The notes beneath the pieces are model-generated. The model did no database searches. It saw only the letters and a program-made list of their open reading frames with translations, and had not been told where the DNA came from. Made by a program: the position numbers and the translations under genes. A DNA stretch of 7,439 nucleotides, from positions 1 to 7,439 of the forward strand of contig CAMPCG010000141.1 of NCBI GenBank assembly GCA_946644025.1, written 5' to 3'. Positions within the stretch are counted from its first letter, which is position 1. Each line of letters starts with the position of its first letter. Shown piece by piece: positions 2,692 through 6,281 of the stretch. The DNA comes from an uncultured Prevotellaceae bacterium (GTDB lineage Bacteria > Bacteroidota > Bacteroidia > Bacteroidales > Bacteroidaceae).

Positions 2692-4032
2692 ATGGCTATA
2701 AAGAAAGTAAACACTCCGTCTGAATATGCTGCACAGCCTAAAAGCGGCATCGAGACAACTCTGACAGGCGTAGCCGACGGCAATAAGGTGCGTGTCGACG
2801 GCATCAACGTGCGCGTCAATACGCCAACTCTGGGCGATGCCGTCTATGCCGACGGTAACGACTACTATTTCTACAAAGGAGGCGACCGCCTGAACCACGC
2901 CCTGCTCGCTGCCGCCGGACTGGTTGCCGTCGGGCCGGTATGTGGATTCCTGGACGGCAAGGCTGTAGTAATGAACGGCACCGAGGCCGACCGCAAGTAT
3001 GCCGATGTGCTGCAGTACACCATCACCGCCATCACCAGCATCACGCCAACCATCAATCTCCACTTCCGCGACACGTCGAAGAGCGGACAGGCGCAGTATG
3101 ACAGCAACATCCCCGTCACACCTACGCTCACCTCTACCGACATCAACGCCACCACCGCCGCAGAGATTTCTGCCGCCGTGGCTGCCAAGGCTGCCGAGGT
3201 GGGCGATACGCAGGCATGGTGGGCCTATCTGGCCGATGCCGACGGCAACAAGGTGGACGAAGGAGGCACGTGCATCATCATCCAGTGCGACTCGTGGAGC
3301 AACTACGCCCAGTATGCCGTTAGCGGCTCCGGCCTTACCATCAGTTTCACCACGTGGGGCGACATGCCCGAAAATAGTTGGTATAAGAAACTGAACGGTC
3401 AGACCACGAACTATCGCGGTCTGATGAACATCGCCCGTGGCGCAGCCTACTTCGGCACCAACGGACGTGTGCCGACGGCCGACATCGCCGTGGGCAGCGA
3501 GGCCAGCAATACCGACCCCGTGAAGCGCGAGGAGTTCAACACCTCGGCATTCTGCACCGCCATCCGCAACCACTACAAGACCTACGAGGCCTACCTGCAT
3601 GGCGAGTTTGGCATCCCGTACCCGCAGAAGTGGGGTTGCTTCGGTCTGCCGCACGCCAAGGAATTGACGTTGAAGTACGCTCTGAAGACCGCTCCCACCA
3701 AGGATGGCGGCAATAAGTATAAGTACCCAGCCATGTACTATGCCTACAGCACCACCTACGGCATCGACGGCCTGGACTTCGGCGACTGGTATCTTCAGGG
3801 TGTTCACGAGGGTGTTCAGTTCATGGACGACGCCAACATGGCCGTCATCAACCGCACGCTGTCCAAGATGGGCAAGTCTACCATAAGTAACGGCACGACC
3901 CGTTGGTTCGCCCAGAGGGGCAACGTGCACAACGCCTGGCTCTTCAACGGCAGCAACGGGCCCTTGTACATCGTCAACGTGTACGGCACGTATCGTGCGA
4001 GGGCTCTTGCGCTATTGGAATTTAAATCTTAA
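2692..4032 (+). CDS. DGR target (variable) protein: C-type-lectin-fold phage adhesin
   Basis: A 446-aa protein; the ATG follows a 38-nt AT-rich spacer after the upstream gene. Residues 1-~150 are a beta-rich N-terminal part, followed by an Ala-rich helix (about 150-170) and a central domain. The C-terminal part resembles the CLec/formylglycine-enzyme-like fold used by DGR variable proteins: 'DFGDWYLQG' (G364-D365-W366), then 'MAVINRTLSKMG', then the W-x-x-Q-x-x-N-x-x-NAW pattern and the terminal 'RARALALLEF', equivalent to the usual R-VRAV-x-F ending. The VR encodes residues 402-442. Comparison with the TR puts the variable residues at 403, 410, 413, 417, 421, 424, 426-428, 431, 432, 434 and 441. 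Invariant scaffold positions such as W405, N414-A415-W416 and R435-A436-R437 fall on non-adenine or unaltered codons. It is probably the receptor-binding tip of the tail, with its ligand unknown. The DGR target role is strongly supported by the repeat pair; N-terminal domain assignments are uncertain. Confidence 0.92.
   Translation: MAIKKVNTPSEYAAQPKSGIETTLTGVADGNKVRVDGINVRVNTPTLGDAVYADGNDYYFYKGGDRLNHALLAAAGLVAVGPVCGFLDGKAVVMNGTEADRKYADVLQYTITAITSITPTINLHFRDTSKSGQAQYDSNIPVTPTLTSTDINATTAAEISAAVAAKAAEVGDTQAWWAYLADADGNKVDEGGTCIIIQCDSWSNYAQYAVSGSGLTISFTTWGDMPENSWYKKLNGQTTNYRGLMNIARGAAYFGTNGRVPTADIAVGSEASNTDPVKREEFNTSAFCTAIRNHYKTYEAYLHGEFGIPYPQKWGCFGLPHAKELTLKYALKTAPTKDGGNKYKYPAMYYAYSTTYGIDGLDFGDWYLQGVHEGVQFMDDANMAVINRTLSKMGKSTISNGTTRWFAQRGNVHNAWLFNGSNGPLYIVNVYGTYRARALALLEFKS
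3891..4017 (+). repeat. DGR variable repeat (VR)
   Basis: These 127 nt align without gaps to the template repeat at 4787-4913 (constant offset of 896). There are 18 mismatches. Seventeen fall on adenines of the TR, at VR positions 3899, 3920, 3928, 3940, 3953, 3961, 3962, 3967, 3971, 3973, 3974, 3982, 3985, 3986, 3991, 4012 and 4013; the other is 3919 (TR T, VR G). By my count 17 of 40 TR adenines are substituted against 1 of 87 other bases. Substitutions are A to C, G and T, mostly at first and second codon positions. The repeat ends 15 nt before the stop codon of the adhesin gene, as usual for DGR targets. Confidence 0.96.
3994..4011 (+). promoter_or_regulatory. Initiation-of-mutagenic-homing-like (IMH) segment of VR
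   Basis: CGTGCGAGGGCTCTTGCG is identical to TR 4890-4907, including its single adenine, and forms the GC-rich 3' end of the VR before the last variable codon (441). In BPP-1-type DGRs the GC-rich 3' end of VR is the IMH, which fixes where cDNA priming and integration start and marks VR as recipient. The identity is seen; the function is inferred by analogy. The two substitutions just downstream (4012-4013) mean the homing start may lie slightly further 3'. Confidence 0.65.
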
Positions 4033-4038
4033 ACCGCT

Positions 4039-4068
4039 CCGCGCCCATCCCGTAAGGGTGTGGCGCGG
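4039..4068 (+). other. Hairpin with GTAA tetraloop downstream of VR
   Basis: CCGCGCC (4039-4045) pairs with GGCGCGG (4062-4068). Inside is a 3x3 internal loop (CAT/TGT) and a second stem CCC/GGG (4049-4051 with 4056-4058), closed by GTAA, a GNRA-type loop. It lies 27 nt after the IMH-like segment and 6 nt after the stop codon at 4030-4032. Hairpins or cruciforms just downstream of VR stimulate retrohoming in the BPP-1 DGR, which is the likely role here; a transcript-end hairpin is the alternative. No T-run follows. Confidence 0.55.
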
Positions 4069-4078
4069 GCGCCATAAC

Positions 4079-4097
4079 GCCGCCCCTTGTAGGCGGC
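4079..4097 (+). other. Second short hairpin after the adhesin gene
   Basis: GCCGCC (4079-4084) pairs with GGCGGC (4092-4097) around the 7-nt loop CCTTGTA. It is followed by mixed sequence rather than T-rich sequence, so it is not a clear terminator. It may act with the preceding hairpin to separate the adhesin message from the DGR accessory genes. Confidence 0.35.
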
Positions 4098-4116
4098 TCG
4101 CAATCAGAGAAAGTGA

Positions 4117-4242
4117 GTGGAACAATATACCGACTACGACGCCTATCTGCAGGACGCCTACGAACAGCAGGCCGACAGGTGGCGCGGAATAACAAGAGCA
4201 CAAAATGAATCACGGAACAAAGCCGAGGCCAGGCGGCAATAA
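4117..4242 (+). CDS. Possible 41-aa acidic small protein overlapping avd
   Basis: This frame opens with GTG at 4117 and ends at TAA 4240-4242. The encoded 41 residues begin MEQYTDYDAYLQDAYEQQ and continue with ADRWRGITRAQNESRNKAEARRQ-type helical, charged sequence. The composition (Y, D, E, Q early; R, K, N late) looks like a real small helical protein rather than a chance frame. A TGA lies directly upstream in frame (4114-4116), so GTG 4117 is the only upstream start, and a purine-rich AGAGAAAG sits just before it. It overlaps the accessory gene by 38 nt in another frame. It may be a small phage protein or a translational coupler for avd. There is no homology evidence, so confidence is low. 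Confidence 0.4.
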   Translation: MEQYTDYDAYLQDAYEQQADRWRGITRAQNESRNKAEARRQ

Positions 4243-4600
4243 AGCCAAAAACGACAAGTCGAGCATACTTGTAGATGCCAAGATGCTGCTCAGGATTTAC
4301 AATCCCATCTTCCAGCACATGCCGAAGATAGAGCGCATCGACGGCCTCGGTGCCGACATGCGGCGTGCCATCCTCGACATCATCAGCCATTTCTCAATAG
4401 CCTACGAGTGCGAAGAGGTGCGGCAACAGGAGATACGGCAGATGATAGGCAGCTACGGCAAGGCGATGGCCGTGTTTGATCTGTTGCGCGACCTTGGTGT
4501 GGTACCCGACACCGAACTTTATCTGATGGCGGAGAGGATGGACCGCATCGAGCAGGGCATCCTGAAATGGCGCAATTCACTAAGAAGCTGTAAGTCTTAA
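4205..4600 (+). CDS. avd: DGR accessory variability determinant (Avd-like)
   Basis: A 131-aa protein, the usual Avd size. Avd is a basic four-helix-bundle protein that forms a pentameric barrel, binds the DGR reverse transcriptase and the TR-containing RNA, and is needed for mutagenic cDNA synthesis and homing. Visible features are a basic, hydrophilic N-terminal tail (1-18), a first helix (about 21-37) ending in 'HMPKIERIDGLG' (the family's PK-x-x-R-x-x-LG turn, P40, K41, R44, L48, G49), a second helix to ~68 (RAILDIISHFSIAYE), a third helix (about 70-97) and a fourth (about 103-127). Its place directly upstream of TR and RT supports the call. The ATG at 4205 is used; an internal Met at residue 27 would remove part of helix 1, so is less likely. 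The fold assignment is by pattern only. Confidence 0.85.
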   Translation: MNHGTKPRPGGNKAKNDKSSILVDAKMLLRIYNPIFQHMPKIERIDGLGADMRRAILDIISHFSIAYECEEVRQQEIRQMIGSYGKAMAVFDLLRDLGVVPDTELYLMAERMDRIEQGILKWRNSLRSCKS

Positions 4601-4786
4601 TTCCCGTCAGGAGCGGTGTCAGGTCCCGGCTTACGATGCTACGGGTTAGCATGCACACCGAAAGAGGTCGCCGTCAGTTACGGAATAAGATAATAGGGGA
4701 CGCGGCTATCATTCCTGCCATTTGCGGCAGGCGTCGCGGCGGCTACGGCAGCCCGGCGATAGCAACATCATAATGCCGTCCGACAC
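4601..4786 (+). ncRNA. Structured leader of the DGR template RNA (putative)
   Basis: No convincing gene lies between avd and TR. Instead there are nested complementary segments: CGGTGT (4614-4619) pairs with ACACCG (4655-4660), enclosing ATGCTA (4636-4641) paired with TAGCAT (4647-4652) around the loop CGGGT. CCCG (4625-4628) could pair with the loop CGGG (4642-4645), forming a pseudoknot or an alternative stem. Nearer the TR, CCTGCC (4714-4719) pairs with GGCAGG (4726-4731). In the BPP-1 DGR the template RNA includes avd-end and flanking sequence that RT-Avd recognises, so this stretch is probably the 5' part of that RNA. The complementarity is seen; function and RNA ends are inferred. Confidence 0.5.
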
Positions 4787-4913
4787 CGGCACGAACCGTT
4801 GGTTCGCCCAGAGGTACAACGTGAACAACGCCTGGATCTTCAACGGCAACAACGGGAACTTGAACAACAACAACGTGAACAACACGAATCGTGCGAGGGC
4901 TCTTGCGAAATTG
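4787..4913 (+). repeat. DGR template repeat (TR)
   Basis: This is the invariant donor copy matching VR 3891-4017. Read in the VR frame it has no stop codon and is dominated by AAC: 14 AAC codons plus AAT, TAC, ATC and AAA. AAC is the typical DGR template codon, because changing its A's gives many amino acids but never a stop. It lies 186 nt after avd and 54 nt before the RT start, on the same strand, as in canonical cassettes. Its transcript serves as the template for error-prone reverse transcription. An open frame runs through it (4722-4943) but is probably not a gene; it exists because TR mirrors a coding segment. Confidence 0.96.
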
Positions 4914-4967
4914 TCTAAACGTATTAATTGGAATGACTTATAGTTTTTTCTTATCTGTTTAAAAAAA
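4914..4967 (+). other. TR-RT spacer, probable 3' part of template RNA
   Basis: A 54-nt AT-rich spacer between TR and the RT start. In BPP-1 the equivalent spacer is an essential part of the template RNA, where cDNA priming occurs. It contains ATTGGAAT (4927-4934), also found at the VR 3' junction (4014-4021), then T-run TAGTTTTTTC and an A8 tract touching the RT start codon. The T-run without a preceding hairpin does not make a clear terminator. I could not identify a convincing promoter here. Confidence 0.45.
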
Positions 4968-6281
4968 ATGACTCTTCGAGAAAAGGCAACCATATTCAGG
5001 CATCAGTGCGACGTGATGGACGTCACTCGCAAGAACAAGCGCTACGGGCGCGACTCCGTGGCCTTCGAGCGGCACTGGGTCTCGCAGCTCTATAGCGACA
5101 CGCAGGCGCGGCTGGAGCGTACGTTCCGGATAGAAGAGGACTATGCCTTTCTAACTCCCATTCCGCGCTGGCGTGAGATATTTGCTACCTGCGCCTCTGG
5201 GCGCAATGCCGACCATGAGTTCTGCGATGCGCTGGAGCCGTATATTGAGCGCGAGTTGCACGAGCGTACGTTTAACAACCGCATAGACATGGGCAGTCAG
5301 GCAGCCATCAACCGGGTTATGGAAGATGTCTTCGAGGTTACGCAGGGTTATACCCGTCCTGCCCGCATCATAAAGCTTGATCTTAAAGGCTTTTTCCCGA
5401 ATGCTAACCTTGACCGTGTGGAGCAGTTCTTTCTTGATATTATCGACAAGTATCAGGACGACATCATTGCCAATGCTGTTATGTCGGGCGAATGTCCGCC
5501 GGCCTACGCCGCCGAATATCCTGCCTATCTGCGTTGGCTTGCGATGGTCGTCATCCACTGCTGCCCCACGCTTCACTGCGAATTGCGCACGCCACGCGCC
5601 TTCTGGCACGAGTATATTGACCCCGAGAAATCGCTCTTCGGAAAGCCAGACGGCATCGGTGCGCCAATAGGCCGTCTGCCGTCACAGAAAGGCATGGGCC
5701 TGTATGTGAACGACGAGGTGCGCTGGCTCAACGACGACTGTGGTGTGCGCACCACCTGCTTCATGGACGACTTCGTAATGGCGGTGCCTGAAAATCGTCA
5801 TTGCTATGTACTGTCGCTTATACCAGTACTCCGCAAACGGCTCGCCGCCAAAGGCGTTCGTCTGAACGAGAAGAAGTTCTACGACCAGCCATCCCAACGT
5901 GGGCTTGAGTTTCTCGGGTCTCATATCCGCAACAACCGGCTACACCTGAATGATTGTACGTATCGGCGCGGCATGGAGCGGCTGCGGGAGTTCAACAGCC
6001 TGCCGCCGCGTGAAAAGCACCTCCATCTCGAAAGTTTCCTCTCGTCTATCAACAGTTACTTCGGGTTGCTGAAGAATCGTACCGACCACAATCGGCTGAT
6101 GACTATGCTCCGGAGTGTCGACACGGGCTGGTGGCACTACTGCCACTACGATCCCCGACGCCAGTGCGTCGTCGCCAACGAGAGTTACGGCCATCGCAAC
6201 CTTATCAACAGTAAACATCATTTATTAACCAACAAAAAGATTAAGCATCATGACACAACAGGAAAAGCAATCGCTGCTTAA
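4968..6281 (+). CDS. DGR reverse transcriptase
   Basis: A 437-aa RNA-dependent DNA polymerase that would copy TR RNA into adenine-mutated cDNA together with Avd. RT motifs appear in order. Motif A is 'IIKLDLKGFFPN' with catalytic D138. The DGR-specific replacement of the usual QGxxxSP box is 'IGRLPSQ' (234-240), with S239-Q240. Motif C is 'CFMDDFVM' with catalytic D267-D268, phenylalanine replacing the common tyrosine. Next come 'RLNEKKF' (298-304) and 'GLEFLGSHI' (312-320, motif E region). A thumb-like helical region with 'SSINSYFGLLKN' (359-370) follows. The first ~130 residues are the DGR-type N-terminal extension. There is no fused protease, maturase or integrase domain, as expected for DGR RTs (Brt in BPP-1). 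The start ATG directly follows an A8 tract; the 3' end overlaps the next gene by 32 nt, and the tail after about residue 410 is Lys/His-rich and lower in GC. Confidence 0.96.
   Translation: MTLREKATIFRHQCDVMDVTRKNKRYGRDSVAFERHWVSQLYSDTQARLERTFRIEEDYAFLTPIPRWREIFATCASGRNADHEFCDALEPYIERELHERTFNNRIDMGSQAAINRVMEDVFEVTQGYTRPARIIKLDLKGFFPNANLDRVEQFFLDIIDKYQDDIIANAVMSGECPPAYAAEYPAYLRWLAMVVIHCCPTLHCELRTPRAFWHEYIDPEKSLFGKPDGIGAPIGRLPSQKGMGLYVNDEVRWLNDDCGVRTTCFMDDFVMAVPENRHCYVLSLIPVLRKRLAAKGVRLNEKKFYDQPSQRGLEFLGSHIRNNRLHLNDCTYRRGMERLREFNSLPPREKHLHLESFLSSINSYFGLLKNRTDHNRLMTMLRSVDTGWWHYCHYDPRRQCVVANESYGHRNLINSKHHLLTNKKIKHHDTTGKAIAA

Follow-up and report, generated by a model that had tools for sequence, protein, structure and literature searches.

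Does the 7,439-nucleotide (nt) stretch of contig CAMPCG010000141.1, from an uncultured Prevotellaceae bacterium, carry an intact diversity-generating retroelement (DGR), and does that element use the RNA architecture of the best-studied example? Phages possess in DGRs a natural means of targeted protein hypermutation, the mechanism of which has been worked out in detail mainly for phage BPP-1. Here we report that the element in this stretch (the whole of which we call the window) is a DGR, ordinary for its kind, with a target gene that ends in a variable repeat (VR), an Avd-like gene, a template repeat (TR) and a reverse transcriptase (RT) gene, and with a conserved, covarying RNA on the 5′ side of TR. 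We consider it very probable that this DGR is intact, that it works by the mechanism proposed below, including the 5′ structured RNA, and that it belongs to a Bacteroidales phage or prophage.

A first-pass annotation, made from the letters and their open reading frames (ORFs), had described a complete DGR in canonical order on one strand. Every part that it named was found in its place on the + strand, and the identification as a DGR is borne out by the chemistry of the repeats, by the relationships of the RT and the Avd-like protein, and by the hairpin behind VR. The window is 57% GC, its + strand ORFs include 1001-2653, 2692-4032, 4205-4600 and 4968-6281, and the element is laid out as follows.

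2692..4032, + strand: target gene, 446 residues, VR at its 3′ end (ORF; 22 close homologues vary at template-A codons)
3891..4017, + strand: VR (repeat of 127 nt shared with TR; 17 of the 18 differences at TR adenines)
4012..4013, + strand: fixed VR/TR boundary difference resembling the initiation of mutagenic homing sites IMH and IMH* (CT in VR, AA in TR at 4908-4909; recurs across loci, Leu441 invariant)
4035..4071, + strand: GC-rich DNA hairpin after VR, loop GTAA (DNA fold of 4018-4110)
4205..4600, + strand: Avd-like accessory protein, 131 residues (PHROG 3206; structural model against 4dwl_D)
4601..4786, + strand: structured RNA region before TR, from Avd to TR, 186 nt (matches of the covariance models R1 and R2 described below; covariation in relatives)
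4613..4674, + strand: helix P1 (4613-4620 with 4667-4674, one mismatch), with P2 inside it (R2 alignment; covariation in relatives)
4698..4781, + strand: helix P3 (4698-4702 with 4777-4781; R1 alignment, covariation)
4705..4763, + strand: helix P4 (4705-4709 with 4759-4763), its loop starting with CAU and holding a large insert (R1 alignment, covariation)
4787..4913, + strand: TR (127-nt pair with VR, offset 896)
4968..6281, + strand: DGR-type RT, 437 residues (PHROG 1423; 8ub7; invariant IGRLPSQ and catalytic D)

The repeat pair and its boundary

The largest repeat in the window consists of two direct copies of 127 nt, at 3891-4017 and 4787-4913, the first copy closing the 446-residue ORF 15 nt before its end and the second sitting between the 131-residue and 437-residue ORFs. 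The copies differ at 18 of 127 positions, and 17 of the 18 differences fall on adenines of the second copy, which has 40 of them (hypergeometric P=2.4e-9, or 2.2e-8 when the two boundary positions are left out); none lies at the third codon position of the target. This concentration on adenines identifies the pair as VR and TR.

Two of the 17 adenines stand apart. Mutagenesis was rejected as the source of the AA to CT difference (TR 4908-4909, VR 4012-4013), which is a recurrent boundary change encoding an invariant residue: AA becomes CT in 16 of the 20 loci compared, the window included, the other four having variants of it (A to C alone in L002, AA to CG in L003 and L005, AG to CT in L017), the first letter goes from A to C in all 20, and Leu441, encoded by the boundary CT, is the same in all 23 targets compared below. 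The change is therefore a fixed boundary of the IMH/IMH* kind, and 15 adenines rather than 17 look mutated. The sole change away from an adenine is T4815 in TR to G3919 in VR. L001, a 129,669-nt viral contig that is 88% identical to the window over about 6 kb, has this very change in the corresponding place, with A-site changes that differ from those of the window; several other relatives have single non-A changes in VR too.

Behind VR, and beginning 17 nt past it, lies the hairpin at 4035-4071, in the canonical place that the first-pass annotation had assigned to it, and the segment 4018-4110 folds better than its shuffles under DNA parameters (z -3.38). As far as the accessible part of the source goes, the hairpins of other phage DGRs lie 4-34 nt after VR and have the loop GRNA (PMC3240598); the distance in the window is within this range, whereas its loop, GTAA, deviates. 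That loop excepted, the window has the combination by which DGRs are recognised, namely VR at the 3′ end of the target, a fixed 3′ boundary and a hairpin following it. A second GC-rich hairpin, 4079-4097, comes after the first.

Reverse transcriptase and accessory protein

The RT is full length and carries the IGRxxSQ box and the catalytic residues D138, D267 and D268, as first annotated; these aspartates, along with I234, G235, R236, S239 and Q240, are invariant in 32 aligned RTs (the window and 31 of the 120 relatives listed). Searches with hidden Markov models gave a DGR-type match for the RT (PHROG 1423, E 3.7e-27), while Pfam RVT_1 reached 29.3 bits, slightly under its cut-off of 29.6. 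The single PDB match at E≤1 was 8ub7 (E 6.3e-8), by the structure-match listing the RT of a DGR ribonucleoprotein, and a profile of the 32 sequences, which places the class by profile comparison, again found 8ub7 (4.5e-18), followed by DRT2 (0.0014) and retron-type RTs (0.77). A group II intron or retron RT was rejected: the NCBIfam retron match is sub-threshold (E 0.068) and the PDB profile puts the DGR RT far ahead. The active-site box of the window RT reads FMDD (F265-M266-D267-D268) and is invariant in the 32 aligned sequences; many RTs carry Y in its first place.

An Avd accessory protein is part of many DGRs. The Avd-like accessory protein of the first-pass annotation is upheld by the match of the 131-residue ORF to PHROG 3206 ‘Avd’ (E 6.2e-5) and by its fold. 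The structural model (predicted local distance difference test score, pLDDT, 86.2) matches BPP-1 Avd, 4dwl_D, with a template modelling (TM) score of 0.84 by target length and a Foldseek E of 0.017, and also matches the Avd chains of 8ub7; the hypothetical protein 2gsc ranks first among the structural matches (E 5.3e-4), which also include the S23-type 2rld. Three results count against the Avd identity. The NCBIfam Avd model gives the window protein 12.6 bits against a cut-off of 80, Pfam bAvd does not match it (6 of 15 aligned sequences match at E≤0.1), and a sequence-profile search of PDB retrieved no Avd.

A structured RNA between Avd and TR

Across the relatives, the region between Avd and TR contains a recurring hairpin with a loop that starts with CAU, directly before TR. 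A scan of 84 sources for TR/VR pairs found one in 76, many of them the same contig twice, and these were reduced to 58 distinct pre-TR segments. By script, a CATNN loop closed by at least five pairs (G-U allowed) is present in 54 of the 58, including one doubtful pairing in L064, which has a loop insert too; the remaining four (the window, L001, L047 and L057) have a large insert in the P4 loop. In the segments with such inserts (4710-4758 in the window; L001, L047, L057 and L064) the stem and the CAU start are retained.

Covariation was scored for helices P3 and P4 in 34 of the 58 segments (alignment A4) and for P1 and P2, which lie 5′ of them, in 30 (alignment A6); long-insert segments and near-duplicates were omitted from both, distant groups from A6 as well, and a realignment of 25 (A5) was not used for the counts. 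In P3/P4, 91.4% of cells are paired as opposed to 68.5% in shuffles, with a covariation score of 0.667 against 0.225 for shuffled and at most 0.153 for slid alignments. The figures for P1/P2 are 88.0% against 61.3%, and 0.725 against 0.253 and at most 0.156. Of P3, RNAalifold predicted the inner four pairs unaided, and likewise the whole helices P1, P2 and P4.

Covariance models of P3/P4 (R1) and of P1/P2 (R2) match the window at 4688-4790 (E 1.1e-8) and 4582-4700 (E 8.8e-6), respectively. Applied to 23 sources outside its training set, R1 matched all 12 loci of the RT family (some of them near-duplicates of each other), recognised the inner hairpin only in the Bacteroides phages F2 and F4 (E 0.044) and had no match in nine other, more distant DGRs, BPP-1 among them. 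R2 matched 11 of 25 sources, most weakly L019 (0.023) and L030 (0.22).

Three Bacteroidales genomes, all taken from the RT search, gave one R1 match each, and over 295 Bacteroidales genomes (18 candidates scored per genome, with strict filters) R1 matched one, which is the only one with an RT of the window clade (E 4e-213, the next being 1e-58, among 17 genomes with a related RT at E≤1e-20). Beside other RTs, no CATNN hairpin was found before TR in 13 distinct loci with a TR/VR pair (one weak); nine further loci gave no pair by script. A search blind to the RT, using two DNA patterns of the hairpin, matched 11 viral contigs. Nine of these had been reached through the RT as well, and L101, the tenth, encodes an RT that is 44.6% identical. 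In the eleventh, L103, the pattern has an isolated match at 3733-3760, and no RT or TR/VR pair was found in the 12.6 kb examined.

In Rfam, no family matches the window at E≤1, and ten relatives, part of a scan of 19 sources, have no match that reaches a gathering threshold; this includes the RT-15 RNA (RF03018), unmatched at the same respective thresholds. A partial literature search yielded no title or abstract on a structured RNA 5′ of TR in the window clade, and no paper for RT-15 RNA, RF03018, Phage_DGR or RF03022. The pre-TR region is a conserved, covarying RNA common to the RT clade of the window, and apparently an uncatalogued one.

Proposed mechanism and probable role of the RNA

In the mechanism that we propose, the TR transcript would be copied by the RT together with Avd into cDNA carrying random bases at template adenines, and this cDNA would replace VR at the 3′ end of the target with the help of two elements, the homologous VR end, where the AA/CT boundary is fixed, and the DNA hairpin next to it. 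A protein that is probably virion-associated would thereby have its C-terminal tip diversified. In this clade, the structured portion of the DGR RNA would lie 5′ of TR, and we infer that it positions or docks RT-Avd or stops the RT: helices P1-P4 most likely dock RT-Avd and/or set where reverse transcription ends.

Several points weigh against this reading. The sequences scored for covariation were picked after the motif had been seen, and the helices were drawn from the same sequences. R2 leaves 14 of its 25 sources unmatched, including F2, BPP-1 and the distant groups among L068-L083 that were given to it; such groups keep P3/P4, and P1/P2 as modelled are therefore not universal. In the window itself P2 is weak and the free energy of the pre-TR segment is unremarkable (z -0.63), and the variation confined to VR comes from relatives. 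The structure model of the target is unusable (pLDDT 37.5). Since the free energies of both the pre-TR segment and the post-TR segment (z 0.03) of the window are uninformative, the case for the RNA rests on covariation.

It is possible, though we doubt it, that the structure before TR regulates TR/RT expression, as a leader or an attenuator, instead of acting as a docking or stop element. A location in the operon upstream of the RT would suit such a leader, as would the unremarkable free energy in the window. Against a leader, P3′ ends 5 nt before TR, the hairpin keeps its pre-TR place in 54 of the 58 segments, the other four having the loop insert, and the RT-15 RNA is placed alike; moreover, the short segment 3′ of TR, the site of the docking spacer in BPP-1, yielded no consensus structure.

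That last observation also bears on a reading we hold to be unlikely, in which a docking spacer lies 3′ of TR as in BPP-1, overlapping the RT coding start, and the pre-TR RNA has some other role. The DGR transcript could extend into the RT gene, and the 54-nt spacer plus the RT start would be long enough. However, when the 150 nt behind TR were aligned for 20 loci, a search that runs across the RT start and is not codon-aware returned no consensus pair, although a mean identity of 49% may let a helix escape it; and the z-score of the window segment is close to zero. With no Rfam match, a spacer of 54 nt and no consensus pairs, the window shows no structured 3′ spacer of the BPP-1 type (RF03022). 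The TR-RT spacers of relatives, where the rows were judged clean, measure 16-54 nt; in other rows the value is larger, negative or empty, the script having placed the TR end too far upstream or misjudged the RT start.

Activity in relatives and probable activity of the element

VR polymorphism beside an invariant TR, the sign of activity named in the first-pass annotation, was found between related viral contigs, and hence for relatives of the window. L003 and L005 differ at 19 positions in 10,008 nt, all 19 in VR and 18 of them at TR adenines, and L007 and L021 at 21 positions in 1,927 nt, 20 of them in VR and all 20 at TR adenines; TR is identical within each pair. The window RT shares 57-58% identity with those of L003, L005 and L007, and the L021 contig has a partial RT. 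The targets tell the same story on the protein level: among 23 of them (the window and the best 22 of the 120 listed from 299 homologues, 75-92% identical) the pairwise difference averages 0.69 at 22 template-A codons (residues with an A within the first two positions of the template codon), against 0.087 at the 20 other VR residues, and 0.13 over residues 1-400. The DGR family is thus active, both in the VR-only variation of relatives and in the variation of target homologues at template-A codons. For the window's own copy, which the first-pass annotation called intact and likely active, the full-length RT with its catalytic residues agrees with that description, and its activity we infer from the relatives.

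A relic, that is a real DGR whose VR records past rounds and whose machinery is now silent, is very improbable. The one non-A change in VR would fit it, as would the fact that the evidence of activity comes from relatives; but the RT is complete and its catalytic residues are invariant, VR continues the reading frame with no stop, close target homologues vary at template-A codons, and relatives vary in VR only. An ordinary duplication that drifted would also leave a direct repeat, but it is ruled out for practical purposes by the bias of the differences to TR adenines (17 of 18) and by the recurrence of the same one-sided pattern in related loci.

Target protein and phage setting

The target has no match in Pfam. 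Lcl_C, a domain that we take to be lectin-like, lies over the VR domain in two of seven target homologues examined, weakly (E 0.11 and 0.24), with no match in the window target; a C-type-lectin-like fold is common among DGR targets without being obligatory. The protein is probably virion-associated and may bind a receptor. The first-pass annotation set the element in a ‘tail-fibre operon’. A neighbouring ORF at window positions 2-466 matches PHROG 9729, tail fibre (E 2e-5), and in the flanks of L001 one of ten ORFs matches a minor tail protein family (PHROG 1446, E 5e-7) and a different one has weak spanin matches. These tail-family matches of the neighbours are weak, and for that reason the operon is only partly supported; it is plausible, not proven.

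The relatives found in genome records are Bacteroidales, and the carrier of the DGR is most likely a Bacteroidales phage or prophage, Bacteroidales being its presumed host. The phage collection searched contained no near-identical named phage and no relative of the target either. Two loci fetched by a TR-end pattern, L023 and L024, have no blastn match to the window.

Comparison with known DGRs

The BPP-1 DGR (mtd-avd-TR-brt; NC_005357) shares with the window the gene order target-Avd-TR-RT, a target gene with VR at its 3′ end, adenine-specific differences, a related RT and Avd and, by the accessible part of PMC3240598, a hairpin after VR. The two differ around the template. In BPP-1, TR abuts the avd stop and is followed by a 144-nt spacer before brt that holds Rfam RF03022, whereas the window has its structured RNA in the 186 nt before TR, and 54 nt on the 3′ side. 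The BPP-1 spacer, according to what is accessible of PMC12875486, folds, recruits bRT-Avd and holds the priming adenine. The 5′ RNA and the short 3′ spacer make the window clade a variant of the BPP-1 prototype.

Closer to home, the Bacteroides uniformis phages F1, F2 and F4 have, like the window, a Bacteroides phage DGR with Avd, TR and RT, as described in the accessible part of PMC8143477. In F2 and F4, as in the window clade, TR is preceded by the inner CAUUU hairpin, whereas the RTs of the three phages are 26-28% identical to that of the window and R1 recognises the inner hairpin only.

The nearest parallel in placement is the RT-15 RNA (RF03018) of Burkholderia and Pseudomonas phage DGRs, which like the window RNA is found between Avd and TR. 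It was located in three Proteobacterial phages, at 2182-2364 (L089), 2154-2346 (L092) and 2170-2346 (L093), ending 1-2 nt past the TR start called by the script, which can call that start late. Filling the Avd-TR interval as it does, RT-15 looks like the pre-TR part of a DGR RNA, and its Rfam name says nothing of its nature; with RT-15 already catalogued, an RNA 5′ of and beside TR is not wholly new. The two RNAs are distinct by their models, the window and ten relatives being unmatched by RF03018 and the RT-15 loci unmatched by R1.

A covarying RNA across the template from that of BPP-1, with a short 3′ spacer, makes RT-Avd binding and the priming and stop sites of cDNA testable in gut-phage DGRs, and R1 and R2 are tools for marking the pre-TR region in related metagenomic DGRs. 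On a broader level we suggest, tentatively and as a close call, that this clade of Bacteroidota-phage DGRs may have the RNA that docks RT-Avd 5′ of the template, its P1-P4 leader with the CAU-start loop standing in for the long 3′ spacer that BPP-1 has. The start and stop of cDNA would then be set by a different RNA architecture, and the window clade and RT-15 would together form a 5′-scaffold class of DGR RNA.

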